From a virus, in IMG/VR virus record IMGVR_UViG_3300047181_000043, positions 1 to 57,838 of that record: 57,838 nucleotides of DNA; one strand, given 5' to 3'. Below the pieces are notes generated by a model that saw nothing but the letters and a program-made list of their open reading frames with translations, made no database searches and was not told where the DNA came from. Each line of letters starts with the position of its first letter. The stretch's first letter is position 1. This document shows, in pieces, positions 1,005 through 57,770 of this stretch. The position numbers were made by a program, and so were the translations under genes.

Positions 1005-1066
1005 GCCTAACGCTGAGGTCTACTGCAACTCGCATTTGGGGTTGTCAGTAGCACCGTTTGTTAGGC
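1005..1066 (-). repeat. attC-like recombination site A (62 nt)
   Basis: The ends are GCCTAAC and GTTAGGC (7-bp perfect inverted repeat; integron R boxes are RYYYAAC and GTTRRRY). Inside, an unpaired spacer (GCTGA opposite GTTT) is followed by a GGT/ACC box, then a stem CTACTG-CAAC against GTTG-CAGTAG that leaves two single unpaired bases on one strand, and a ~10-nt end loop. This is the layout of an integron attC site: R box, spacer, L box, extrahelical bases, variable loop. The stop of the leftward gene at 1020 lies inside it, as is common for cassettes. Confidence 0.65.
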
Positions 1067-1400
1067 TATGGGTTTCTTTGCAGTCCCTAATTGAGCATAG
1101 GACTTTTGGTGTTTTGTGTTCGTTGTATTCTACCATATCAAACGCTTCCTTTAGTGTTTTGTATGAGTTGATCCAATTCTCAAAAAAGTTCTCATCACAA
1201 ACGCTCCATAATTGTTCGCCAGTCTCATCATTATGATGGACGCAAATAATCATTGGGGTTACTCGCTCCCACATTACCGCTTTACCGCATTTTGAGCACC
1301 ATGTTTCTCTGTAGTTTCGCTCGATCCTTACACTCAGATTTTGGTGATGCTTTCCGTCATGGTGGACTTTTACAATTTCTACTAAACTTCGGCCGCGCAT
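1020..1400 (-). CDS. Hypothetical cassette-like protein with CxxC, 126 aa
   Basis: Not recognised. The ATG at 1400 has GGAGA five bases upstream; an upstream in-frame ATG at 1412 is less well placed. The sequence holds a WCSKCGK knuckle near residue 34, further Cys and His residues (ICVHH, SVCDE, LCSIRDCK), so a small zinc-binding domain is possible. The last ~16 codons run through attC-like site A. Its start lies 15 bases after attC-like site B, so site B, gene and site A form one cassette-like unit read leftward. The function is unknown. Confidence 0.6.
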   Translation of the reverse strand: MRGRSLVEIVKVHHDGKHHQNLSVRIERNYRETWCSKCGKAVMWERVTPMIICVHHNDETGEQLWSVCDENFFENWINSYKTLKEAFDMVEYNEHKTPKVLCSIRDCKETHSLTNGATDNPKCELQ

Positions 1401-1414
1401 TGTATTCTCCATTA

Positions 1415-1446
1415 GCCTAACGCAGAGGTATCACCGTTTGTTAGGC
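1415..1446 (-). repeat. attC-like recombination site B (32 nt, minimal)
   Basis: GCCTAAC and GTTAGGC ends enclose the same inner boxes as site A (GCWGAGGT on one side, ACCGTTT on the other), but the end loop is only ATC. The TAA stop of the leftward gene 1842-1441 is formed by the GCCTAAC end itself. Two sites with identical boxes and very different loop lengths match how attC sites vary. Confidence 0.6.
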
Positions 1447-1842
1447 ATCCTCTTGTTCGTGGGTGTACTCGATCTCATAATCACGCCCATCATCCTTGAA
1501 GATGGAAAAACGAATACCGTCAGAGTTTGGTGTAGCGATATACATAAAATCGTTAGCACCGTGTATCTTCACGCATCGAGGGGAATCCGTATCAGAAACA
1601 GATACAGCAAACACATCATCATCGGGTGAGCATATGCCAACGGACTCAATCAACTTATTGAATTCATCTAGTGTCTGTGATGAGTTATCAAAGAACTCGG
1701 TTAGCTTACCACTAGGAACGCCAACCACAGTAACGTGATGTAAATCTACAAGGGATATATAGACGTGCTTATATTCTCCATCCAATAATCGAGTATCAAC
1801 CCTGTTGTATGTTCCTGTAATGATATTTCCATTGGTTTCCAT
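1441..1842 (-). CDS. Hypothetical cassette-like protein, 133 aa
   Basis: Not recognised. The frame stays open upstream to 2037, but the ATG at 1842 has a strong AAGGAG six bases before it, and the upstream part is the inverted-repeat arm, so I start here (METNGNIITG). The product is acidic with many beta-type stretches (KHVYISLVDLHHVTVVGVPSG, RFSIFKDDGRDYEIEY) and no known motif. The gene is the first after the GTTAGGC of the left arm and its stop lies inside attC-like site B, which is the expected place of a first cassette. Confidence 0.65.
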   Translation of the reverse strand: METNGNIITGTYNRVDTRLLDGEYKHVYISLVDLHHVTVVGVPSGKLTEFFDNSSQTLDEFNKLIESVGICSPDDDVFAVSVSDTDSPRCVKIHGANDFMYIATPNSDGIRFSIFKDDGRDYEIEYTHEQEDA

Positions 1843-1874
1843 TGTTTCTCCTTTCATTTCTTTTCGTTTCGTAT

Positions 1875-2046
1875 GCCTAACATCCAAGTTACCCCCGGAT
1901 TTCACATCCGTGTATCCAGAAGAAACTCGCGTTTTATACGGATAATATAATAAAAATTCAGGATAAAACGTAAATATTTTCCGGATAAGACTAAAGATTC
2001 CCGCTTTATCCAGATCCGGATAATGCGAAAATTGCATGATAAACTA
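1875..2046. repeat. Left arm of ~170-bp imperfect inverted repeat (landing-pad-like)
   Basis: By eye, roughly 80% matched to the reverse complement of 57390-57562. It starts at GCCTAAC (GTTAGGC read outward), then carries a hairpin-forming stretch at 1895-1920. Next come GGATAA boxes at 1940, 1961, 1983 and 2018 and an inverted TTATCC at 2006, spaced 21-23 bp apart for the first four. It ends with GATAAACTA just before the inward gene. Together with the right arm it brackets the whole T4-like core. The single outward GTTAGGC without a mirrored partner is attI-like rather than attC-like. Confidence 0.8.
2038..2046 (+). promoter_or_regulatory. Late-type promoter motif GATAAACTA
   Basis: The 9-mer lies 5 bases before the ATG of the gp25-like gene. 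The same word precedes other structural or unknown genes at 26790, 44835 and, on the minus strand, 26783 and 57398. It resembles the T4 late promoter box TATAAATA. Confidence 0.55.
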
Positions 2047-2051
2047 CCAAT

Positions 2052-2768
2052 ATGTCAGCTTCCATTACATTTACTCCTCAGAAGATTAGGATAGGCAATT
2101 ACCTAAATATTTCGGTTTCAGGAACCACATTAGACACGTCAAATCCGGGAAAGGTGGTTGTATTGGTTAATGGGTTGTACGCCAGGATAGTATCGATTGA
2201 TACAAATAAGTTAATCGTAGTGGTGCCTAAAAAGTCTAGTAATGGAACGGTAAAGGTAATTCTCAAGAATATAACCTATTCAGGGGTTACTTATACAACT
2301 ATAGAATCGACTGATATACTAACCATTGCATATGATGATGTTCAATTTGACAGAACGGCTGTCGCCTCTGGGTTATTCAATCGAGGGCCTAGTAAGGATC
2401 CTATATATAATAAAGATATTACCATTGAAAATTTTTCAATGGTAACTGATGCAAGTTCTCTTATACAGAATGTATATAACATTCTATTAACCGCTCCGAG
2501 TGAACGGTTATTTAACGCGGAATTTGGAAATCCGTTACTTAATGATGTTTTTGCGCTTAACAATCTACCTGGTGAAAATGACACGGTAACATTAAACAAA
2601 CTAAAGAAACTAATAGAGATTCAAGAACCGAGGGTTATTGTGGATGCATCAAAATCTTATGCGTTCTACGATCCAAATTCAAATTCAATGAAGGTTCTTT
2701 TGATTATATTGTTACCAGCGGGAAAAAGTGAGCAGGTGGCTGTTTCACTCAAGGCGCTCGGAAATTAA
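2052..2768 (+). CDS. Baseplate wedge protein, gp25-like, with N-terminal IPT-like domain
   Basis: The C-terminal ~110 residues carry the gp25/GPW pattern: SLIQNVYNILLTAPSERLF followed by NAEFGNPLLNDVFALNN, then a helix and a beta-rich end. T4 gp25 is ~130 aa, so the first ~100 residues are an extra beta-rich domain with the look of an IPT/TIG Ig-like fold (FTPQKIRIGNYLNISVSG). gp25 is part of the wedge that surrounds the hub and helps start sheath assembly. It follows the left arm's late-type motif by 5 bases. Its TAA overlaps the ATG of the next gene, so the two are probably coupled. The wedge role is secure; the extra domain is inference. Confidence 0.8.
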   Translation: MSASITFTPQKIRIGNYLNISVSGTTLDTSNPGKVVVLVNGLYARIVSIDTNKLIVVVPKKSSNGTVKVILKNITYSGVTYTTIESTDILTIAYDDVQFDRTAVASGLFNRGPSKDPIYNKDITIENFSMVTDASSLIQNVYNILLTAPSERLFNAEFGNPLLNDVFALNNLPGENDTVTLNKLKKLIEIQEPRVIVDASKSYAFYDPNSNSMKVLLIILLPAGKSEQVAVSLKALGN

Positions 2769-7948: not shown

Positions 7949-8131
7949 ATGAAACGCATGAAAGTAGTACGAGTGACAAAGGAAGAGTTCGAGCTTGAGG
8001 ATGGCACCGTCCAGCCCATGATCGTGGATCTGGGCTATGTCCCAACCGTTGAAGAGTTCCAGCAGATGCTGGATGAGTCCTGCAAATTCGCAGGTATCGA
8101 GGTTGAGGAAGACAAAGATGCCAGTAAATGA
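7949..8131 (+). CDS. Small acidic protein preceding tnpA, 60 aa
   Basis: Function not known. A strong AAGGAGAAGAGG lies just before the ATG. The product (MKRMKVVRVTKEEFELEDGT...VPTVEEFQQMLDES) is acidic and has the look of short ORFs that accompany transposons and phage accessory genes. Its last 14 bases overlap the start of tnpA in another frame, so tnpA is probably translated by coupling. It could be a regulator of transposition, which is inference from position. Confidence 0.6.
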   Translation: MKRMKVVRVTKEEFELEDGTVQPMIVDLGYVPTVEEFQQMLDESCKFAGIEVEEDKDASK

Positions 8132-8777
8132 AAATGACAGGATGATACGCATTCGAGAAGCATGCGAGATGCTTGGTGTTCACCAGAACACGTTGCGTAT
8201 GTGGACGGAACAGGGGAAGATCCAAGCATACCGTGGTGAGAACTCTGATCGTGGTCAGAGACGTTACCGTATTGGTGACATCAAAGCACTGCTTGGTATG
8301 AAGCAGTTGGATGCACCAGTTGAAGCACTTCCTGTAGCCATCTACTGTCGTGTGAGTTCACATGACCAGAAAAAACATGGTGACTTAGAGCGACAGAAAG
8401 GAAGGATGCTGGAATTCGCAGTACATAAGAAGTACCACGTCGAGTACATACTGGATGAAGTTGGTTCTGGACTTAATGATAAGCGAAAGAAGCTACATAA
8501 GTTGATGGAACTGGCAGAACAACATAAGATATCCAAAATCATAGTGGAACATAAGGATCGGCTGACTCGTTTCAACTACGAGATCCTTGTCCGTTTCTTC
8601 AACAGCCACGGAGTTTCCGTTGAATATGTGGAAGAAACGCTTGGTGGTACGTTTGAAGCGGAACTGGTGAAGGATCTACTTTCCCTCATCACCGTGTTTT
8701 CAGCGAAGCTGCATGGCAAGCGGAGCAAGGAAAACCGTGAGCGCACTAAGAAGATGAAGGAAGACGGATTGCTATGA
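8118..8777 (+). CDS. tnpA: IS607-family serine recombinase TnpA
   Basis: A transposase of the small serine recombinase class. An N-terminal MerR-like helix-turn-helix (IRIREACEMLGVHQNTLRMW, then RYRIGDIKALLGM) binds DNA. The catalytic domain follows: AIYCRVSS near residue 80 holds the nucleophilic Ser, and EHKDRLTRF near 145 gives the conserved Arg pair. The domain order (HTH first) is typical for IS607. I start at ATG 8118 (MPVNENDR), giving 219 aa, the usual family length; the frame is open further upstream but overlaps the small ORF. The ATGA overlap couples it to tnpB. Confidence 0.9.
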   Translation: MPVNENDRMIRIREACEMLGVHQNTLRMWTEQGKIQAYRGENSDRGQRRYRIGDIKALLGMKQLDAPVEALPVAIYCRVSSHDQKKHGDLERQKGRMLEFAVHKKYHVEYILDEVGSGLNDKRKKLHKLMELAEQHKISKIIVEHKDRLTRFNYEILVRFFNSHGVSVEYVEETLGGTFEAELVKDLLSLITVFSAKLHGKRSKENRERTKKMKEDGLL

Positions 8778-10582
8778 AGCACTTGGACAACTACAGGGAA
8801 ATGGATTCCACCTACTCGGTGGCATTCTTTCCCCACATGTTGTCCAGAAGCAAGAAGCGTGAGATCCTTCGCATGGCGAAGAAGATCCTTGCACTCAGGA
8901 ACGAAATATCAGAAATCGTACAGGGTGACCTGTTAAAGTTCCTGAACATGAGCAAGTTCGAGTTCTTCAACTACTTCAATCCGATCCTATCAGGAAGGAT
9001 CTCCAGTCATTTCATCAAGAAGATCATGGAAGATGTACATGAAGCATACCAGAGAAGATCCGAAGCGATAGATAAGCATATCCAGTTCCAGATAGTAACC
9101 TCATTGACTCCTGTATTCTACAAGCGTAGAACCAAGGACAAACAGGTTGGTGACCTGAAATCAATCACCAGAAAAACCAAGAAGACTGACATATCGATCA
9201 CATTAACCTACCTTGCTCGTTATGGTCATACGGGAACATTGCAGTTCCTTCGTGGCGCAATAGAGAATACAGAGGTCAAGGAAGACAAGACGTGGTTTTA
9301 TCTTAAATTGTTGGACATGTGTGATCGTTATGGATTTGGTAGGTTGATGACACTCGCTATGTCAAAACGTGAGCAAGTATATTCTCGTTACGAGGATCGT
9401 GGTGCTATCTGCTTCAGTTCCCTATCGTTCAAGGGAAGATCAAGAATAACACGTCCTATCGTAGCTCGTTCCTCCAAGAAGAATTCTAGGATCAGTCACT
9501 TCGTTGAGTTGTCATGGGAGTGGTCAGAGACGAAAGGTAAACGGAAGAAATCTGACACGATGTGCATTCCTGTTAAGTATAATGCTAAGTATCACAGGAA
9601 CCTAAAAAGATACAGCAACGGAACAGATACCAGCTATACGGTAGTTGTCCGTGGTAAAGATATTCATGTTGTGCTTACCCGTGATGGTAAAAGGTATGTA
9701 CCACTAGCAGAAATAGAGCAGGAGAAAGTTGTTGGTGCTGATGTGAATCAGAAGCATAACATGCTTTCCTGTAGTGATGGATTCACTGTAGATCATAACA
9801 GAGAATTGATTGATGATCTACAGAAAGAACTACTGAAGATAGATAAGAATCGGGAAGTCCACGACAAGCATCAGAAGCTCATCATCGAAGCCAAGAAGCA
9901 GGAAGCTAGGGATTCCGGTGACAAGTATATCAAGTCCAAGAAAGTTGCATACAAACCTACTCGTAAGGAACTTCGGATAATAGATGCATTGTCACGCAAG
10001 AATACCCACTACCAAGAACAGAAGATTGCAGAAATACTGAATCATATGGTGGCTTGTGGATTCAACCACATCGTCCTTGAGGACTTGGATGGATTCATTG
10101 GTGCGAAAACATATGGTGACACCGAAGGTGGTGTGAATACAGGTCGTCTTGGTAAAGCTCTACAACTTTCATCAATCAAGGATATCATTCTCCACATGGC
10201 AACCAGATACGGTGTTTCCGTGTCTCTAGTGCATAAGGAATATTCATCGAAGCAATGTCCGTTATGTGACTGCATCGATGACCTGAACAGGACATCACAG
10301 GAGAAATTTGTTTGTGTGAGATGTGGTTACAGTGATAACGCTGACCACAACTCATCAGTTAATTTGAAAATCCGGCTTACCTCGACCGTGTTAAGAGGGA
10401 AGTTGCTCACGCAACAGACTACCGGATACAGTGCGTTCTTGCCAAAGAACCTTCCTAGATGGAAGGTGAAGGATGCTCTGGAAAAATATCGTCATGGAAT
10501 GGATCTCGATCCATTCGGAAACTTCGTGGAGCCTAAAGTGGTCAGAAATGACCACTATGAAGTTCTGTTAGGTTTGCAGTGA
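8774..10582 (+). CDS. tnpB: TnpB RNA-guided nuclease, unusually long (602 aa)
   Basis: A TnpB-family protein, the transposon ancestor of Cas12 nucleases, which cuts DNA under the guidance of an RNA from the element's right end. RuvC motifs look intact: VGADVN (Asp) near residue 328, VLEDLDG (Glu) near 435, and DNADHNSSVNL (Asp) near 519, with a zinc ribbon CPLC...CVRCG between the last two. At 602 aa it is well above the common ~400, with a long N-terminal part and a ~75-residue tail after the last RuvC motif. Two perfect hairpins lie in its 3' end (10497-10516 and 10537-10556). It overlaps tnpA by four bases. Confidence 0.9.
   Translation: MKHLDNYREMDSTYSVAFFPHMLSRSKKREILRMAKKILALRNEISEIVQGDLLKFLNMSKFEFFNYFNPILSGRISSHFIKKIMEDVHEAYQRRSEAIDKHIQFQIVTSLTPVFYKRRTKDKQVGDLKSITRKTKKTDISITLTYLARYGHTGTLQFLRGAIENTEVKEDKTWFYLKLLDMCDRYGFGRLMTLAMSKREQVYSRYEDRGAICFSSLSFKGRSRITRPIVARSSKKNSRISHFVELSWEWSETKGKRKKSDTMCIPVKYNAKYHRNLKRYSNGTDTSYTVVVRGKDIHVVLTRDGKRYVPLAEIEQEKVVGADVNQKHNMLSCSDGFTVDHNRELIDDLQKELLKIDKNREVHDKHQKLIIEAKKQEARDSGDKYIKSKKVAYKPTRKELRIIDALSRKNTHYQEQKIAEILNHMVACGFNHIVLEDLDGFIGAKTYGDTEGGVNTGRLGKALQLSSIKDIILHMATRYGVSVSLVHKEYSSKQCPLCDCIDDLNRTSQEKFVCVRCGYSDNADHNSSVNLKIRLTSTVLRGKLLTQQTTGYSAFLPKNLPRWKVKDALEKYRHGMDLDPFGNFVEPKVVRNDHYEVLLGLQ
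10497..10556 (+). ncRNA. Candidate omega-RNA structure inside the tnpB 3' end
   Basis: Two perfect hairpins lie in coding sequence: GAATGGATC pairs with GATCCATTC (10497-10516, 2-nt loop), and AGTGGTCA pairs with TGACCACT around GAAA (10537-10556). TnpB guide RNAs are known to overlap the 3' end of tnpB and to run into the flanking DNA. The 3' limit and guide cannot be set here. Confidence 0.35.
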
Positions 10583-10590
10583 CGGTGATA

Positions 10591-11520
10591 ATGTGTACAT
10601 TCTGTTCAAATACTGTACCGGAGACTGCAATTGAATTACAATATTCCGAAATTCGTAATGAATTCACTTCACCTACCAATATAACGGATCTTTCTATTGT
10701 ATATAGAAAGGTGCCTAGTGGGATGTTTCCTATAGGTGAATTGGGATTTTCGCCTGACCGGTCGGGCTCATATTCCGGATGTACCGGACTTCCTTTTATG
10801 CCACTGATGATATCGAAACGACATGACTGTCCGATTTTATCGCCTGGTGGTGATGAAATAATTCTGGGAACAAACCAATGGATGTTGTTATATAACTTGA
10901 ACTCAGATGTTAATAAGTTAATTAAATCAATTCCCCATATAGAAGATTTCAAATGGCGCTATGGAGCCGATAGCACCATGGTTATATCATATTCAACCGT
11001 TCCTAAAAAATTAATGGATCACTACCCACGGTTCCCGGATAAAAAATTATTTAATATAAATGCGTTCGAAGTATTGCGTATTTGCTACGCTTCCGGTGAA
11101 GAATTGGAATCTTTGTTACATAATTTTGCGTTTAGTAAGATTGAGAGATTAGATGATGATGAACGTATAATATTATGTGACATGGTAGAAGCTAAAATTA
11201 AATTGGAAAAGGATTCAAATATGAAAGACGAAGCGCCTGTCGGCCTTATTATAGATTCATTATCATCGACTCATAAAAATAACGATGCAGAATCTCAAAA
11301 ATATTATTCACCTACGCCTATAGTAACTATTGGAAGTGGTGGGGTGGTTACTTCTTCGGGACCTATCAACAACATTTCTGAAGTGGCGACAGCCGAAACT
11401 GGGGAAGTGGCGACAGCCAGAGATAATATAATAAAAATAATCGATCGCGAGTTAGAACAACTGTCCATAATTCAGATTGTTAATGTGTTAGATAATATAA
11501 TAAAGTTGAAAATAAAATAA
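10591..11520 (+). CDS. Hypothetical protein, 309 aa
   Basis: Not recognised. I choose the ATG at 10591 (MCTFCSNTVPET); the frame is open from 10579, overlapping the tnpB stop. The N-terminal CTFC could bind metal with later Cys/His. The central part is mixed alpha/beta (NQWMLLYNLNSDVNKLIKSIP). The C-terminal third is low in complexity with a repeated EVATAETG/EVATARD pair, encoded by two copies of the ten-base word GGCGACAGCC 24 bases apart, and ends in a helix. The gene lies immediately after the IS607-type element, which may have brought or replaced its original start region. Confidence 0.55.
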   Translation: MCTFCSNTVPETAIELQYSEIRNEFTSPTNITDLSIVYRKVPSGMFPIGELGFSPDRSGSYSGCTGLPFMPLMISKRHDCPILSPGGDEIILGTNQWMLLYNLNSDVNKLIKSIPHIEDFKWRYGADSTMVISYSTVPKKLMDHYPRFPDKKLFNINAFEVLRICYASGEELESLLHNFAFSKIERLDDDERIILCDMVEAKIKLEKDSNMKDEAPVGLIIDSLSSTHKNNDAESQKYYSPTPIVTIGSGGVVTSSGPINNISEVATAETGEVATARDNIIKIIDRELEQLSIIQIVNVLDNIIKLKIK

Positions 11521-12796: not shown

Positions 12797-15700
12797 ATGA
12801 CACAACGAAATTCAAATTACCTCCCACTGAAGCTCACCAAAAACGCTATCAAGGTACTCGAAGCGCGATACCTGAAAAAGGTCGAAGGAAAGATCGTAGA
12901 AACCCCAGAAGATTTGTTCTACCGAGTGGCTGACGCCATGGCCAACGTCGATGAAAGATATGGCGCGAGTGCCGAAGAAATCGAAGCACTTCGCGTTAAA
13001 TTCTACAATATGATGGTAGAAGGAAAGTTCATGCCAAATAGCCCCGCACTGATGAACGCGGGAAAGAACAATGGCAACAGCTTCTCTGCATGTATTCACG
13101 GAGATTCACCGGTGTTGACTAACAGTGGTTATGTGCCTATGCGAGAAATATATGACCGGGTGAATTCAGGCGAGACTGTTATTGTATCTAATGGATTTAA
13201 TGAATGGGTCCCTGTATTAGCTGCCATAAATCAAGGTATTAAACCAGTATATAGGATCAATACACGAGCAGGTCGTTATGTAGATTGTACTTTAGATCAT
13301 AAATTCTATACATTCGAGCCAGGAAATAGAGATAATGGTGCATATGAAACCGGAAGCTTTAAATGGGCTCCCATTGGAGAAATTCCTTGTGGTAGGAGGT
13401 TGGCATATGGGATGCAGTCACCAATCGTGGAAGATAATAATGAAATTGATTCGGAGATAGCGTTAGCCGCCTGGATATTAACTGATGGAGGTTGCGGATG
13501 GTACAAGCAATCTAAGGGAACTACAGGGGAGTTTTTTGTTGGTGAAATTCAAGTTATAGATGATCGATCCCTAGATAACGTTATTAATCATATTAACAAG
13601 TTGGGATTTTCATATACACAAAAAGATATTTCAGGTGTGGGTGGAGTAGAACGATTTACTAGAATCAGATCATATGATAGAAAATTAGCTAAGTTTTGTG
13701 AAAAATTTGAGTTATTTAATAGAACTAACACAAAAATAGTGTCTTCCTTAATAAGAAATTCTTCGTATTCAAATAAGAGAGAATTTTTGCGAATCGTATT
13801 TGAAGCAGATGGATGTATAACAGGAACTGGAATAGGATTTCAATCTGTTTCTCAAGTATTAGTTGAAAACATTTCTGAGATGTTAGATTTATTTGGGATT
13901 GCTCATACCATAAATTTCAAAAAAGAACGCCGGGTAGGGAGATTGGATGGTTGGTCAATCCAAATTAATCACACCCGAAGTATCTTATTGTTTAAGGAAA
14001 GAATTGGGTTTATATCTGATCGTAAGCAATTGAAATTATCACAATGGCCGGAAAAGAATCCATATCCAGAAAATATAAAATATGTAGGTAATGAATATTT
14101 AGGTGAAGATGAAGTATTTGATATTCAAACCGCTATAGATGGGAATGGGAGTTTTGTTGTTGATGGTATTATTGTACATAACTGTTTTGTCCTACCTCTC
14201 AATGATTCTATTCGTGATATATTTACAACTGCTTTGAATACCGCCCTTGTACAGAAGGCTGGAGGTGGTACGGGATTTAGCTTCGACAAGCTTCGGCCGA
14301 CAGGCGATTTTATCAATAGCTCCGGTGGAACTACATCAGGTCCTATTTCCTTTTGGAAGGTACTCGCAGAAACTACCAATTCAATTCAGCAAGGATGTTT
14401 TGTAGGATCTACCCTTATTGGAATGCCTGGTCAGAACAAGCAGATCAGAGACATTAAAAAAGGTGATGTTGTCTATTCATATGATACTAATATAGGACAT
14501 GTAGTGTATAAGAAAGCTGCGTGTGATGCGTTCAAGACTAAAGAAAACGCACCCGTTTTTAAACTCTCAACGAATCGAGGACTTGATGTTTTCGTTACAG
14601 AAAATCATCAATTCTTACTTCGTAGTAATGATTACATAGAATTAAAGGATTTAGATTCTCGTTTGCCTATAATGTCCCTACTTCGCCGATTGGACGTTTC
14701 TCAAGTCGATGCCACATACCCAGCACAAACAACTGATGGAATTGATTATTCATTTGTGTCAAATAACTATTTAGATTCTGTATATGACACCGTAGTTGCG
14801 TCAATTGAATTTTCACATCATGAAGATGTGTGGGATTTTGAAGTTGAAGACACTCATAATTTTAGCGTGGTAGGAAATGATGGTGAGGGTATATTTGTAC
14901 ATAATTCCATGCGTCGCGGTGCAAACATGGGTATGATGACCATTACCCATCCTGATATTCTCAAGTTCATCACAGCCAAGCAAGATCTAAGTAAGTTCAC
15001 TAATTACAATATTTCGATCAAGATTCCCGATGCCTGGATGGTCGAGTATAAGAAATGTCCAGATGCTCCACACGTCGCTATTAATTTCCGTACTGGAGAT
15101 CGTTATGTTATTCCAAAGACAGTTCCGATCGAAACATATGAAATCAATGAGTTGATCAGATATGAAGATTATGTAGAGGGTTCTGTTAAAATTTGGACCA
15201 TGCGCGAAATCTTTGGAATCATTATTGATTGTGCTTGGAAAACTGGCGAACCCGGTCTTTTCTTTATTGATAAAGTCAATGAAAAAAATGCAACTCCTCA
15301 CGTTGGTGAAATCGAGGCAAGTAACCCCTGCGGCGAATTACCCTTACTCCCATATGAAGCTTGCAACTTAGGATCGCTAAATATTGCTGCATTTGTTACT
15401 GAAAATGGTCTTGACTGGGAATCCCTCGGACAATATATCAGAACCGCAACATATTTCCTGGATACCGTTATTGACGCGAGTCCTTTCCCAATTCCAGAGA
15501 TCAAGAAGATGTGCGATGAGAATCGCAAGATCGGTTTGGGTTTGATGGGATTTGCTGATGCGATGTTCCTGTTAGGAATCTCCTATAATTCAGATGAAGG
15601 AATTGAGTTCGGTCGCAAATTGATGAAGTTCATTAATGATACTGCACTGGATGAATCTGAATCGATTGCCAAGAAGAAGGGAGTATTCCCTAATTATGTA

Positions 15701-17071
15701 GGATCTCGTTGGGAGACCGAATGGAACCGAACCTTACGTAATGCCGGAGTGACAACAGTTGCCCCAACAGGAACCATTTCAATTATTGCGGATTGTTCTG
15801 GTGGCATCGAGCCAATGTTCTCGCTGGCATTTGAACGTAACGTGTTAAATGGCCAGAAGTTAATCGAAGTGAATAAGATATTTGAGAAGGTTGCTAAGGA
15901 CCGAGGATTTTATTCTCCGGAACTTATGGAACGTTTGGCTAAGGAAGGAACGCTTCAACATATTGATGAAGTTCCTGATGATATCAAGAAAATCTATGTA
16001 TGTTCTCATGATATCGCTCCAGAATGGCATATCCGCATGCAGGCAGCCTTCCAGGAATCCTGTAGTTCTTCCATATCCAAAACAATCAATATGCCCCACA
16101 CGGCCTCCAGAGAGGATGTGGAACAGACTTACTTGATGGCCTGGGAGATGAATTGCAAGGGCATCACGGTATACCGTGACGGTTGTCGCGATATGCAGCC
16201 CATGTCGCTTAAGAAGGAATCTGCCAAGATGGAGATTCCCGAAGCCAAGGAAGAGGCTAAGCATATCGAGGAACAGCAGATCGAATTGCAAAATATTTTC
16301 GTAGGCGTTCCTGAAGGCCAAATCATTTCTGATGTTTCGTTCCCAGATCGTTCCCACTCGGAGACCTATGTTATCCGCGCCGGCAAGAAGGGTTCAAAGA
16401 CGCACAAGAAGATATATACAACCCTAGCATTCGCGGATAAGGATTTGACTCGTCCATTTGCGATGTTTGTTAATTCCAATTCGTTCACCTCGAATGAAGT
16501 CACTGATGAGATTGTGAAGATTCTGAAGGCGCTTGCTAAGGAAAAGCTTTCTGAGGATGCGATCCATGCTTTGCGCGAATCCATGAAGGGCCAGAGTAAG
16601 ATTTCCCAGTTGATCCACATAACATCGGCTGTCGCCACTGTGGGAGTGACTGCGCAAGATATCATAGCAGTTCTTCCACATGAGAACAAGACTGACGAGG
16701 ATCCTGTGGTGACGGCGGACATTATTTCAATTCTTACCAAGCTTGCTGCGGAAAAGGGAATTCGCAAGGAATTGGTAGAGGATCTTGAAAAGAAGTATCG
16801 CAATCAGGTTAACGTGGTCAAGATTGCTCGTTTGATAGGCATGTTGCTTCGTCATAACGTTCGAATCTCGGATGTGGTTGAATCATTCGACCAGGTGCAA
16901 TTCCCAGTTACCTCATTCGTTTTCCAGATCAAGAAGTTGTTATCCAAGTTCATTAAGGATGGCACTGAAGTGACTGGCAAAACAGGATGTCCTGAATGTG
17001 GTGGTAAGATGGTCTACCAAGAAGGGTGTTTGAAATGTGCATCCGGCTGTGGTTGGTCAAAGTGCAAATAA
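12797..17071 (+). CDS. nrdJ: Class II (B12-dependent) ribonucleotide reductase with two inteins
   Basis: The enzyme reduces ribonucleotides to deoxyribonucleotides and would supply phage DNA synthesis without a separate small subunit. The 1424-aa precursor gives an ~890-aa enzyme after removal of two inteins (residues 99-462 and 534-703). [20 protein letters not shown] near residue 840 has the catalytic Cys and Glu and one redox Cys. The extein Cys after intein 1 (NSFSA-CFVLPL) is the partner redox Cys by family comparison. SMRRGANMG follows intein 2. The tail has a zinc-ribbon-like Cys cluster ([15 protein letters not shown], SKCK) typical of class II enzymes. It is a single-gene unit with its own motif and terminator. 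Confidence 0.92.
   Translation: [1424 protein letters not shown]
13091..14182 (+). other. Intein 1 of the reductase, with LAGLIDADG endonuclease
   Basis: 364 residues, starting with Cys ([15 protein letters not shown]) and ending in VDGIIVHN followed by the extein Cys. DHKFYTF is the block B-type segment. [10 protein letters not shown] and [10 protein letters not shown] are the two LAGLIDADG helices of a homing endonuclease. It interrupts the gene exactly before the redox-active Cys of the reductase, a site that the host protein cannot change without losing function. Confidence 0.9.
14396..14905 (+). other. Intein 2 of the reductase, mini-intein
   Basis: 170 residues, from [12 protein letters not shown] to GIFVHN, followed by an extein Ser (SMRRGANMG). 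TENHQFLL gives the block B His. There is no room for an endonuclease, so it can splice but no longer home by itself. Confidence 0.88.
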
Positions 17072-17936: not shown

Positions 17937-19271
17937 ATGACTAATCAAAATCTCGCTGGTATTCCAGCATCCGCCCAAATGCCTGATTTTAATAACCAGG
18001 TAGAACTCGCCCAAAGATTAATGGGAAATTTCGACAGAGCGCCTAAGGGTGATCGTAAGCCCAAGGAATCCGAAGATCCCCGGTACTGGAAACTTATTTG
18101 TTCCGAAAAGGTTCCTACAAGTCGAGCATTGATTCGACCACTTCCAGATGCAGGTGACGTTAATAAGTTGTTTTCGGTTCCACAGGCTGTCCATAAGCTA
18201 TGGGATGATGCATCTCGAACATTTGTCGAGTTTAAGTGCCGCAAGACCTTGGGACCCAATGAAAAGTGCCTTGGTTGTGAAATGAACATGAAGATGTCTC
18301 GCAATGCCACTCCTGAGCAGAAGAAGGGTTTTATCAAGGAGCGTTATGCGAAGAATAGCTTTATTTCGAATATTTACGTTATCAATGATATTCTTACCCC
18401 AACCAATAACTTCTCGGTTAAATTGTATCGTCATTCTGAAAAGATGGCTAAGACATTGATGTCTCCGATTAGTAAAGAAGGATATAGTGTAGTGGATCCA
18501 AATGCTGGATTTAATGCGGAGGCACAGATTTTCCGTTTCTCCCCACATAATCCATTTGATTCCTATAATTTTATAGTATCTGCTGCGTATGATTATCAGA
18601 AGAAGATGCCTGATTATTTTGGAAATCTAAGCTCTTCTAAGTTTGATCTCTCATGGCACGGTCCTCTAGGAAATACACAGCAGGAAGTTGATGCTATTCT
18701 TTCACAATGTGTTGATTTGACCACCATGTTCTTGTCTGATATTCCAACTGTTGAAGAAACTGGAATTTTGTTCCAGAAGTTCTTGGATGGTGTTGCTCAG
18801 GGTGGATTTGCTCAGCCCGGCGTTCAGGGATATGTACAAGGTGGTCTTGGTGCTCCATCTGCTCCCAACTTTGCCAAACCTGCCGGAGCACCATCGGCGT
18901 CGCCAATGAGCCTTGGTAACCCAACAGGATTCCCACAAACACCAGCACAGCCAATGCCAGCATTCGGAGGATTCCCACAATCCGGTCCTATTCAGGCGCC
19001 TGCGCAAAAACCTCAAGGACAACCAGGGTTTAGCCAAGCTTCTGTTGCTGGGTTTAATGCTCCTGGTCAGCAACAATATCAACCACAAGGATTCCCTCAA
19101 CAGGCAAATCCAATGTTTGGTAACGTTCAGCCCTCTGCGGCGGCATCGGCTCCTCAATATCATGCACCACAGCGTCAGCAAATTAATACATTCGGCCCAA
19201 CTCCTGTAGAACCGGGTCCTGCTCAGAATGAAGTTGAGCCCATCGATGCAGTCGATGATCTTCCATTCTAA
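17937..19271 (+). CDS. Single-stranded DNA-binding protein, gp32-like
   Basis: It coats single-stranded DNA at forks and recombination intermediates. The zinc-binding spacing H86-X14-C101-X9-C111-X2-C114 nearly matches T4 gp32 (H-X12-C-X9-C-X2-C), set in an N-terminal OB-type core of ~290 residues. A ~140-residue Gly/Pro/Gln-rich linker follows, and the protein ends in an acidic tip (DAVDDLPF) of the kind used by SSBs to recruit partners. At 444 aa it is longer than gp32 (301) because of the linker. AAAAAGGAG precedes the ATG, unlike the leaderless replication genes, which fits a protein needed in large amounts. A terminator follows. Confidence 0.85.
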   Translation: MTNQNLAGIPASAQMPDFNNQVELAQRLMGNFDRAPKGDRKPKESEDPRYWKLICSEKVPTSRALIRPLPDAGDVNKLFSVPQAVHKLWDDASRTFVEFKCRKTLGPNEKCLGCEMNMKMSRNATPEQKKGFIKERYAKNSFISNIYVINDILTPTNNFSVKLYRHSEKMAKTLMSPISKEGYSVVDPNAGFNAEAQIFRFSPHNPFDSYNFIVSAAYDYQKKMPDYFGNLSSSKFDLSWHGPLGNTQQEVDAILSQCVDLTTMFLSDIPTVEETGILFQKFLDGVAQGGFAQPGVQGYVQGGLGAPSAPNFAKPAGAPSASPMSLGNPTGFPQTPAQPMPAFGGFPQSGPIQAPAQKPQGQPGFSQASVAGFNAPGQQQYQPQGFPQQANPMFGNVQPSAAASAPQYHAPQRQQINTFGPTPVEPGPAQNEVEPIDAVDDLPF

Positions 19272-35459: not shown

Positions 35460-38372
35460 ATGGGTACTAGAAGCGGGCAAGGCGCACCTGGCGTAAAAGA
35501 TGAATTAATTGACAATAGCTCTTATGCTACGGTCCCAAATACCATAATCACTGGTGGTTTTGTCGGATTTGCTCCTCGGGGCGAACTCAATACTATCCTT
35601 GATATTGCAGATACGGGATCTATGGATACGGTTCTTGGTAATGGTTATAACAATCCTAAGTTTAATCAAGCACTATATGGCGCTCGTGCCGTGCTTGAAA
35701 ATGGCGGAGCTGTTCAGTTTATTCGCCCATATGGCGAAACTGTAATAACTGACCATCAAGATCCTAACTATGCAACAAATCAAGAATTAAAAACAGATGC
35801 ATTCATAGTCACCTATGATTGGTCAGTTGGTGCTAAAAACAGCATCGGAATTTCACATTTTGCATCATCGAGATATATTTCCGATGCTGCTTCTTCCGAC
35901 AGCATTTTTGCCGGAACCGAACGTGAAATATTCACCGCTGCTCGAGCATTGGCTGAAAATACAAATAAGAATTTTGCTTTGGATTGTGCATCTGCGGGAA
36001 ATAAGATTCCTCTGTTTGCTATAATGAATACAGATCCAACGGTATCGAACCGTTCTGATCTTGCAGATGTAACAAAGGCAACCTTCGCATTTACATCCAC
36101 TAATGTAACCGCGGGTCAGCAAACTGCAATAGCAATCGACAACGCACCTGCGTTCTTCACGATTGGTGATTCGGTTATCTTCGTTGCCGGAAACGGCGCT
36201 ACGTTGCCATCCAACATTCTTTCAAATGTTGCGTACAAGGTATCACAAGTTACTGGTAATTCGGTAACTATTGATGTGTATACTGTAAGTGCCGGTACTG
36301 GTTCTAGTACGCTTATCAATATTTCAGCAGATGTTACCATAAGCGGTAATGATTATTTGCAAGTTAAGACTGCTGCGGTTGGTACATCTGCACAGTATAC
36401 TCAGGTAATTACTCTTGCCGGTACGCCAACAACAGGTGACCTAGTAACGACACTTAATTCGGATGGATCCTTCACAAACTTCCAATTTATAAAGTTGGGT
36501 GAAAGTGCGGATACTGGGAATTCTCCAGTGCTGATATCTTTGTCTGATTTCAGTTCTTCTGCAGTTATCTCCGGAACGACAACGAGCATTCCAGTTCCTA
36601 GCGCAAACACCGTGTTCTCGATTGGTGATGCTGTGAAAGCTGTGGCTGGTACAGGCACTCTTCCTACAGGAATAACCGCGGGTAATACGTATTTGGTTAC
36701 TGGGGTCACTGCTAGTGCGGTTACTTTGGGCGTGACCACATCCGCTGCAGGAACAGGAACTTGCACACTTTCGAACCTCACCGGTACGGTGCGAAACCTT
36801 AAGTCTGCATTTGTAAATGCTGGTTTTGGTTCTGCTTGGGTTACAAGTGACACTGCAGTCCTTACTGTGACCGTTACTGCAGGTCCTAAAATAGCTAAAA
36901 CCGGAACACCTTCCTTCATATCATCTTCGAATGTAGTTGCGGTTACAGTTGGTACTGCAGCGTTGGTATCAAATAGTGAAACTGCTGAATACATTATCGA
37001 TTCTGATATCGGTCGTTCGTTTGTTGGTAATGGTTTGGCAACTCAGGCTTATATCGATACGAACTTTGATGGTAGCGGCGAACGCGTCTATATTCTGAAC
37101 ACTGCAGGTGTTTCCGTTGCTTCTCATTACGTGTTTGTTAACTACTACTTTGCCGGCACATTGTACAGCTTCGGCGGTACTATTGGTCAACAGGTTGTTA
37201 ATACAAACAATCTATTCATTGGAAACGCAGCAAAGGCTGTGGCTAGTGGATGGCAGTTTGTTCTTAATACAAGCGATGATCTTGCCTATGCGCTAGAAGA
37301 TTCTCAGTTTGATCTGAGCAATTCTGTAAGTGAAGGTCAGATTCGTTCATTGTTCCAGAGCCCTGCATTCAATCCTATTGACCCCGCGGTTGTACAAAAC
37401 GTTATTTGGTCATATGATCCACGTAAGAACGGCACCAGCGCGGTGTTCCAGAACGCTTGGCAGCTCTTCCTGAATAAGGATGTCGGTGATGCGGATGCTC
37501 TGTTTGCTTGCGGTACAGCTATTAGCAATTTGTTTGTTCGCGGTCAGGAAACCATTGATTATAACGTTATGAATGTTATGCTTGATGTCTGTGAAAAGCG
37601 CAAGGATTGCTTCTCAATATTTGATGGTATCGACGAACCTAACGTTAAGAAAGCGTTGATGAAATATTCTGCAATCGGTAGCCAAGGTGACGTTGCTCAT
37701 TGGGGTGCTATTTATGATGGTCGTTCTTTGATGAACGATACCACATATACACAACTGACAGATGTTTCTCTGGTGAAGAGTGTGGAACTTGCTAGAATCA
37801 TCACCTCTAACCGAGCTGGCGGAATCTGGTGGTTGCCTCCTGCAGGTCCTACTGGAACTCTGCAGTATGGTGAAAAGTTCACTCGCTCCTATGGTTACGG
37901 CGCTGCTGATGCTAGTTCTGATATTGCTCTTCTCTATGATAGCAATGTCAATCCTACACGCGTTACTCGTGCCGGCTCTGCCGTTTATGGCGACAAGAGC
38001 ATGCAGAAGCGCGAAACAGCGCTTGATCGAATCCATGTAATCATGTTGATCGCTGGAATTCACAAGCAGTTCAACGCATATCTGGACGGTCAAGTATTCC
38101 GTCTTAATACCCCACAGTTGCGCTCAGAAACACAGTCTACATTACAATCCAGAATCAATTTGATCACTGGCGCAAATCCTGCTGGTCTTTACAGTGGTGT
38201 TGTTATCTGTGATAAGACAAATAATACAGACGCTATAATTGCGGCAAACGAGCTGATTGTCGATCTACAGCTTGTTCCTACTAAGGGAGCAGAGTTCATA
38301 ACTCTCCGCACAACAGTTGAAAAGAACGGCAATAACATGAGCGTCAAGAGCTCGCAAATTATCGGGGGTTAA
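35460..38372 (+). CDS. Tail sheath protein, gp18-like, with tandem Ig-like insertion
   Basis: The contractile sheath subunit. The C-terminal domain (residues ~640-970) has the sheath pattern: ANELIVDLQLVPTKGAEFITLRTTVEKNG, and LDRIHVIMLIAGIHKQFNAYLDG. The N-terminus (GVKDELIDNSS, GGFVGFAPRGE) is also typical. At 970 aa it is far longer than T4 gp18 (659), because of a middle region that holds two similar beta-rich units: FFTIGDSVIFVAGNGATLP... near 232-288 and VFSIGDAVKAVAGTGTLP... near 385-441. These probably decorate the outside of the tail. AAAAGGAG precedes the ATG. The tube gene follows. Confidence 0.9.
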   Translation: MGTRSGQGAPGVKDELIDNSSYATVPNTIITGGFVGFAPRGELNTILDIADTGSMDTVLGNGYNNPKFNQALYGARAVLENGGAVQFIRPYGETVITDHQDPNYATNQELKTDAFIVTYDWSVGAKNSIGISHFASSRYISDAASSDSIFAGTEREIFTAARALAENTNKNFALDCASAGNKIPLFAIMNTDPTVSNRSDLADVTKATFAFTSTNVTAGQQTAIAIDNAPAFFTIGDSVIFVAGNGATLPSNILSNVAYKVSQVTGNSVTIDVYTVSAGTGSSTLINISADVTISGNDYLQVKTAAVGTSAQYTQVITLAGTPTTGDLVTTLNSDGSFTNFQFIKLGESADTGNSPVLISLSDFSSSAVISGTTTSIPVPSANTVFSIGDAVKAVAGTGTLPTGITAGNTYLVTGVTASAVTLGVTTSAAGTGTCTLSNLTGTVRNLKSAFVNAGFGSAWVTSDTAVLTVTVTAGPKIAKTGTPSFISSSNVVAVTVGTAALVSNSETAEYIIDSDIGRSFVGNGLATQAYIDTNFDGSGERVYILNTAGVSVASHYVFVNYYFAGTLYSFGGTIGQQVVNTNNLFIGNAAKAVASGWQFVLNTSDDLAYALEDSQFDLSNSVSEGQIRSLFQSPAFNPIDPAVVQNVIWSYDPRKNGTSAVFQNAWQLFLNKDVGDADALFACGTAISNLFVRGQETIDYNVMNVMLDVCEKRKDCFSIFDGIDEPNVKKALMKYSAIGSQGDVAHWGAIYDGRSLMNDTTYTQLTDVSLVKSVELARIITSNRAGGIWWLPPAGPTGTLQYGEKFTRSYGYGAADASSDIALLYDSNVNPTRVTRAGSAVYGDKSMQKRETALDRIHVIMLIAGIHKQFNAYLDGQVFRLNTPQLRSETQSTLQSRINLITGANPAGLYSGVVICDKTNNTDAIIAANELIVDLQLVPTKGAEFITLRTTVEKNGNNMSVKSSQIIGG

Positions 38373-57389: not shown

Positions 57390-57398
57390 TAGTTTATC
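57390..57398 (-). promoter_or_regulatory. Late-type motif GATAAACTA in the right arm
   Basis: Leftward copy, four bases before the GTG at 57385; mirror image of the copy at 2038-2046. Confidence 0.55.
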
Positions 57399-57562
57399 AA
57401 GTCAATTTCGCATTATCCGGATATGGATAAAACGGGAATCTTTAGCCTTATACGGAAAAAACTTTCGTTTTATCCGGATTTTTTATTATATTATCCGCAT
57501 AACGCGAGAGTTTTCTCCTGGATACACGGATGTGAAAACCAGGGGTAACTTGGATGTTAGGC
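57390..57562. repeat. Right arm of the ~170-bp imperfect inverted repeat
   Basis: Mirror of 1875-2046. It ends outward with GTTAGGC (57556-57562). Before this is a hairpin (CTCCTGG with CCAGGGG) whose left-arm counterpart (CTTCTGG with CCGGGGG) keeps pairing by base changes on one side. GGATAA-type boxes are kept, one with a single base change. After the GTTAGGC follow TAATG and GAG, as after attC-like site B on the left. Confidence 0.8.
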
Positions 57563-57578
57563 TAATGCGAGGAACATT

Positions 57579-57770
57579 ATGGACGCAAATCAAGTAGAAA
57601 AATCTCTTAGAACTCTTAGTGAATTACTCATATGCTTTCAATCTTGGGAACCTGAGTCTCGCGTTATGGGTAATGTGAAATCAAGTGACGCATCCGACGC
57701 TATAAGGATTTCAATAAATGCCATAATTAATAGTTACCTTTATTATAAAAATATATGTTATATTGTATAA
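57579..57770 (+). CDS. Hypothetical cassette-like protein, 63 aa
   Basis: Not recognised. GAGGA lies five bases before the ATG, which is 17 bases after the outward GTTAGGC. The product (MDANQVEKSLRTLSELLICFQSWEPESRV...) is helical with an aromatic end (NSYLYYKNICYIV). It points outward, as do the leftward genes at the other end, so it is in the place of a first cassette behind the right arm. Any attC-like site would lie beyond the window. Confidence 0.55.
   Translation: MDANQVEKSLRTLSELLICFQSWEPESRVMGNVKSSDASDAIRISINAIINSYLYYKNICYIV

Follow-up and report, generated by a model that had tools for sequence, protein, structure and literature searches.

A pair of short palindromic sites near the left end of a phage sequence resemble the attC sites of integrons, and the question that this locus raises is how a T4-like phage might come by gene cassettes. 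The window, that is, the whole stretch of DNA analysed here, is IMG/VR record IMGVR_UViG_3300047181_000043 (57,838 bases), probably a genome fragment. It encodes a UvsX-like recombinase, a DnaB-type helicase, a primase, a family B DNA polymerase, a clamp loader, a ribonucleotide reductase, a contractile tail sheath, an SbcD-like nuclease and a gp25-like wedge, and so contains the genes that mark a T4-like myovirus (UvsX, helicase, polymerase, clamp loader, sheath and wedge). Its polymerase shares only ~27% identity with named phages and 42-44% with a set of IMG/VR contigs that reach 260 kb. The window represents part of the genome of a large, divergent T4-like myovirus, and the core gene matches bear out the preliminary description, which had placed a T4-like core beside the two sites. 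Among the core genes, the ribonucleotide reductase ORF (12797-17071, 1424 aa) has its matches in separate stretches and possibly carries an intein or other insert. The tail sheath protein (35460-38372, 970 aa) is roughly double the phrog_23 sheath profile in length and matches it end to end with long insertions. The features discussed below are as follows, in window coordinates unless stated.

1-105, no strand assigned: left end of the contig, within a TnpB-type insertion element; matches positions 13792-13896 of the sister contig G002 with 100% identity
811-984, minus strand: third array gene, 57 aa, after attC A; no attC behind it
1005-1066, minus strand: attC site A, 62 nt, at the end of cassette 2; R'' at 1066-1060, R' at 1011-1005
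1011-1420, minus strand: cassette 2, 410 bp unit; ORF 1020-1412, 130 aa, CxxC zinc-ribbon-like
1415-1446, minus strand: attC-like site B, 32 nt, at the end of cassette 1; has both R boxes and GGT/ACC but no inner stem
1421-1880, minus strand: cassette 1, 460 bp from one expected cut point to the next; ORF 1441-1842, 133 aa
1875-2046, minus strand: leader 1, attI-like, ~170 bp, ends in GTTAGGC (1875-1881); the array lies on one side, the gp25-like gene on the other
2052-2768, plus strand: gp25-like baseplate wedge gene; GPW_gp25 6.6e-5 (below Pfam's cut-off), phrog_261 3.3e-5
57390-57562, plus strand: leader 2, attI-like, in the opposite orientation to leader 1, ends in GTTAGGC (57556-57562)
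57579-57770, plus strand: first ORF behind leader 2, 63 aa; the contig ends 68 bp on, before any attC
11260-11426 of G002: third leader copy; four attC sites and small genes behind it

Both sites have perfect 7-bp GCCTAAC/GTTAGGC ends, as the preliminary description had noted. Their inner boxes and spacers, which it called identical, are near-identical, with one base differing per pair (GCTGAGGT vs GCAGAGGT, and likewise GTAGCACCG vs GTATCACCG), and the two sites differ in more than loop length, as site B is without the entire inner stem of A. Site A presents RYYYAAC/GTTRRRY R boxes and an inner L stem on a foldable single strand, together with extrahelical bases and a variable terminal structure. 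The two single unpaired bases reported in its stem are present and recur in the same two places in sites of two further contigs, G002 and G003; its outer arms match attC 3 of G002 and the G003 sites. Site B, lacking these unpaired bases, has both R boxes; it is minimal or decayed, because its L stem is down to three pairs and its loop to 3 bases. Compared with 200 shuffles, A had the better fold in every case on the plus strand (z -4.0) and in 199 cases on the minus strand (z -3.3); the fold of B gave z -2.1. A motif-plus-fold scan of the window returned five matches, four of them A and B on both strands, against a shuffle mean of 0.5. Read as attC, both sites have their top strand on the minus strand, in agreement with the leftward gene direction, and the layout of one leftward gene per site with stops inside the sites was correctly described: ORF 1441-1842 stops in B and ORF 1020-1412 in A. 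Cutting at site A is expected after base 1011. We conclude that A is an attC site of canonical form and B a minimal site, which may be worn down or dead.

The independent test of attC identity is a covariance model, R1, rather than covariation among the sites themselves. R1 describes the R and L stems of 18 bacterial attC sites lying beside integron integrase genes, and its training set held no phage sequence. Run unfiltered on the whole window, it ranked site A first (29.2 bits, E 1.5e-5, minus strand; 13.1 bits on the plus strand) and site B second (19.8 bits, E 0.0041, minus strand; 15.4 bits on the opposite strand), ahead of a best unrelated match at E 0.2; these E-values are rough because calibration was short. 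The covariance-model check that had been proposed for these sites therefore came out in their favour, on the expected strand and with a bacterial-only model. With default Infernal speed filters R1 missed both sites, and a filtered search alone would have been misleading. Three sites each were matched in G002 and G003 (E 7e-7 to 0.015). A lone match inside a gene at 19195-19239 (E 0.2) was rejected as an attC site, and weak matches in two other contigs (G008 and G010; E 0.12-0.24) were left uncounted; Rfam gave no match for A or B. Over nine distinct full-length sites from the window, G002 and G003, 95% of cells were paired and 9 of the 16 stem pairs showed double changes; none of 500 shuffles was as good, and slid controls reached at most 52% paired. 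This covariation lends strong support but does not amount to an independent test, because the sites had been picked beforehand by box and fold and the arms registered by hand. Together, R1, polarity, the unpaired bases, the one-gene-per-site layout and covariation support the integron-cassette reading first proposed from the letters.

Looking for sites beyond the window, as had been suggested, revealed two further carriers. A pattern search for A-like attC found IMGVR_UViG_3300047181_000090 (G002, also L004; 33,969 bases), in which the motif-plus-fold scan placed four canonical attC sites behind a leader. No core gene is common to the window and G002; both match a relative, G001, at different places, and the two may belong to a single genome or come from close relatives. 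A TnpB match lies in the G002 stretch neighbouring the segment shared with the left end of the window. Elsewhere in the window, 8037-10582 is an IS607-type element (a serine resolvase-like IS607 transposase, then a TnpB-family RNA-guided nuclease) with homologues in G001 and G002. G001, the first relative found, was rejected as an array carrier, having no array and motif matches at shuffle level. The second carrier, found by an attC left-arm pattern, is a phage with terminase, portal and RecT-type genes, IMGVR_UViG_3300031918_000110 (G003; 31,358 bases with 127-base end repeats). It has five attC sites in one array, plus a second array, of the same attC subfamily as the window. This subfamily is thus present in two unrelated phages; its exact pattern was absent from 84,980 bacterial and archaeal species genomes. 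Two G003 array starts (L028 and L029, positions 2930 and 20771) share an upstream site of their own, ATATCAYACGC...ATAGTTAGGT, which differs from the window leader and has 17 of 30 bases common to both starts (matched by 6 of 5000 shuffles). One of these two array starts has a tRNA-like stretch upstream.

The cassettes also connect the two phages. Over 67 aa, ORF 1020-1412 shares 43% identity with a cassette gene of G003 that likewise ends in its site and has a related attC beside it, and the first 33 bp past the leader 2 box are 94% identical to a G003 cassette start. The common attC subfamily and the homologous cassette in an unrelated phage suggest, from sequence comparison, that one cassette pool may feed both. 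G003 cassettes include DNA methyltransferase and radical-SAM genes. ORF 1441-1842 belongs to no known family in family scans and has a AAAGGAGAAACA ribosome-binding stretch upstream. The two cassette proteins tested had no phage match, and DNA searches with the arrays against phage and plasmid collections gave nothing useful, one returning only methyltransferase-gene similarity.

Sedentary chromosomal integrons carry an attI site and a promoter at one end, followed by unidirectional one-gene cassettes with an attC site after each, and the array here resembles this layout, its leader standing in the putative place of attI and promoter. They differ from it in having IntI next to attI and, usually, one attI. 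At the head of the window array, a lone GTTAGGC overlooked by the preliminary description closes leader 1, from which the gp25-like gene diverges. Identity is 87.9% between leaders 1 and 2, 85.0% between leader 1 and its G002 counterpart, and 91% between leader 2 and that G002 copy. Through GTTAGG the three copies share 87-96% identity, against 29-33% past it; identity that ends exactly at GTTAGG is the pattern that insertion at an attI-like site would leave. The seventh box base is C, C and T in the three leaders, a difference expected if this base comes with the cassette. Different genes lie behind each of the three copies, and each copy adjoins the start of a different divergent core gene. 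Six bp upstream of GTTAGGC, GGTAAC forms an imperfect inverted box, and the two together make a box of the integrase core type. We infer that the leader is an attI-like docking site; it matched no known attI, and a consensus scan weakly indicated a promoter in it. Each leader also holds several TTATCCGGA-like repeats, partly palindromic, whose core is restricted to the leaders in the window and G002 and which could be integrase or regulator binding sites. Two IMG/VR contigs matched by the leader end GTAACTTGGATGTT (L011 and L012) were chance matches, without leader or array.

An IntI-type recombinase, which the preliminary description had proposed to seek in the phage, was not found in the window, G002 or G003. 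The tyrosine recombinase family PF00589 was matched in 0 of 14 records (these three and 11 DNA-polymerase relatives) and in 14 of 14 control genomes. The available, incomplete sequence thus has no intI of a complete integron, and the window, with A and B 348 bp apart and no PF00589 match, holds a cluster of at least two close attC sites without intI (a CALIN), or a single site if B is discounted. The DNA-polymerase relatives had no leader and, under the filtered model, which is insensitive to weak sites, no arrays; the arrays therefore appear to be a trait of this phage and not of the wider group. Among the relatives there was no before/after pair showing gain of a single cassette. Five other IMG/VR contigs (L035, L037, L039, L040 and L042) carry IntI homologues (43-59%) and attC matches; a link between these genes and this phage group was not established.

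The simplest reading is that the host supplies the enzyme. A and B each end a one-gene cassette, and their array starts at a leader that has a second copy in the window and a third in G002. We put at roughly two in three the probability that this is a T4-like phage with integron cassettes captured at several attI-like leaders by IntI acting in trans. The leader would serve as docking site and promoter, and IntI would most likely come from an integron of the bacterial host. This enzyme would fold the attC bottom strand and insert cassettes at G^TTAGGC of the leader, so that the newest cassettes would adjoin the leader and be expressed from it. Several dispersed leaders would give the phage several capture points.

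Clusters of attC without integrase have been described in virulent phages, with recombination assays (Qi et al. 2023, PMC9892861), in which virulent-phage attC sites were recombined by IntI1 and five of the six tested sites recombined. The CALINs of TJE1, P12002L, PH101 and myovirus MW202573 likewise consist of small phage genes flanked by attC with no integrase, and methyltransferase cassettes occur both in published phage CALINs and in G003 (PMC9892861). The phage here differs from those phages as a divergent T4-like myovirus, and in having one leader at three array starts, whereas the text of that report describes no attI-like leader for those virulent phages (PMC9892861). Copies of attI outside class 1 integrons are noted in that text only for a Shewanella prophage, M16-3, which has two arrays, each from a copy of one attI, much as the arrays here start at copies of one leader; M16-3, however, is inactive, its attI is of the known Shewanella type, and it has an IntI gene (PMC9892861). 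The claim that such arrays are rarely described in lytic-type phages is accordingly weaker than first put: phage attC clusters are published, and the repeated attI-like leaders are what is apparently new. A literature search outside subscription journals and preprints found no report of such leaders in a virulent-type phage.

The alternatives differ in what they ask of the leaders and of the enzyme. Cassettes and leader might be passive cargo, copied from a host integron, with the leader duplicated in the phage and no capture there. The absence of an integrase from the records and the worn-down look of site B favour this account, as does the attribution of phage arrays to off-target homologous or illegitimate recombination by Qi et al. 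(PMC9892861). We nevertheless consider it unlikely: three leaders with three different next genes, and identity that stops at the cut motif, are hard to obtain by duplication alone, and the exact-pattern absence of the attC subfamily from species genomes also speaks against a host source.

Still less probable is an integron integrase encoded in a missing part of the genome, which would make the phage integron self-sufficient. Neither the window (57.8 kb) nor G002 (34.0 kb) is a whole genome, the relatives' contigs span 198-260 kb, and IntI genes do occur on some IMG/VR contigs; yet no tyrosine recombinase appeared in the 11 DNA-polymerase relatives, including 198-260 kb contigs, or in G003 (31 kb, with end repeats and two arrays). 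The relatives say little on this phage's integrase, because they are without arrays. That the repeats are not attC but terminators of transcription, or some other kind of palindrome, lying between small phage genes is highly improbable, even though stem-loops lie at gene ends and attC sites are themselves thought to hold weak terminators (PMC9892861): attC is what the model match, the polarity, the conserved unpaired positions, the R boxes and the strand bias point to, and a terminator scan made no call at A or B in the window.

Capture in trans at attI-like leaders remains our preferred reading. It extends to a more tentative proposal, at slightly less than even odds, of a distributed integron without integrase, in which host IntI would swap cassettes at dispersed leader copies and the pool would be shared with unrelated phages. 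Which way cassettes flow between phages and integrons becomes testable, because the attC subfamily is absent by exact pattern from ~85,000 species genomes and present in two unrelated phages. If capture in trans is correct, a lytic-type phage can gain accessory genes singly by site-specific recombination rather than by chance homologous exchange, and phages have a cassette pool in common. The arrangement read here from DNA suggests that this phage may swap small genes in and out with a recombinase borrowed from its host.
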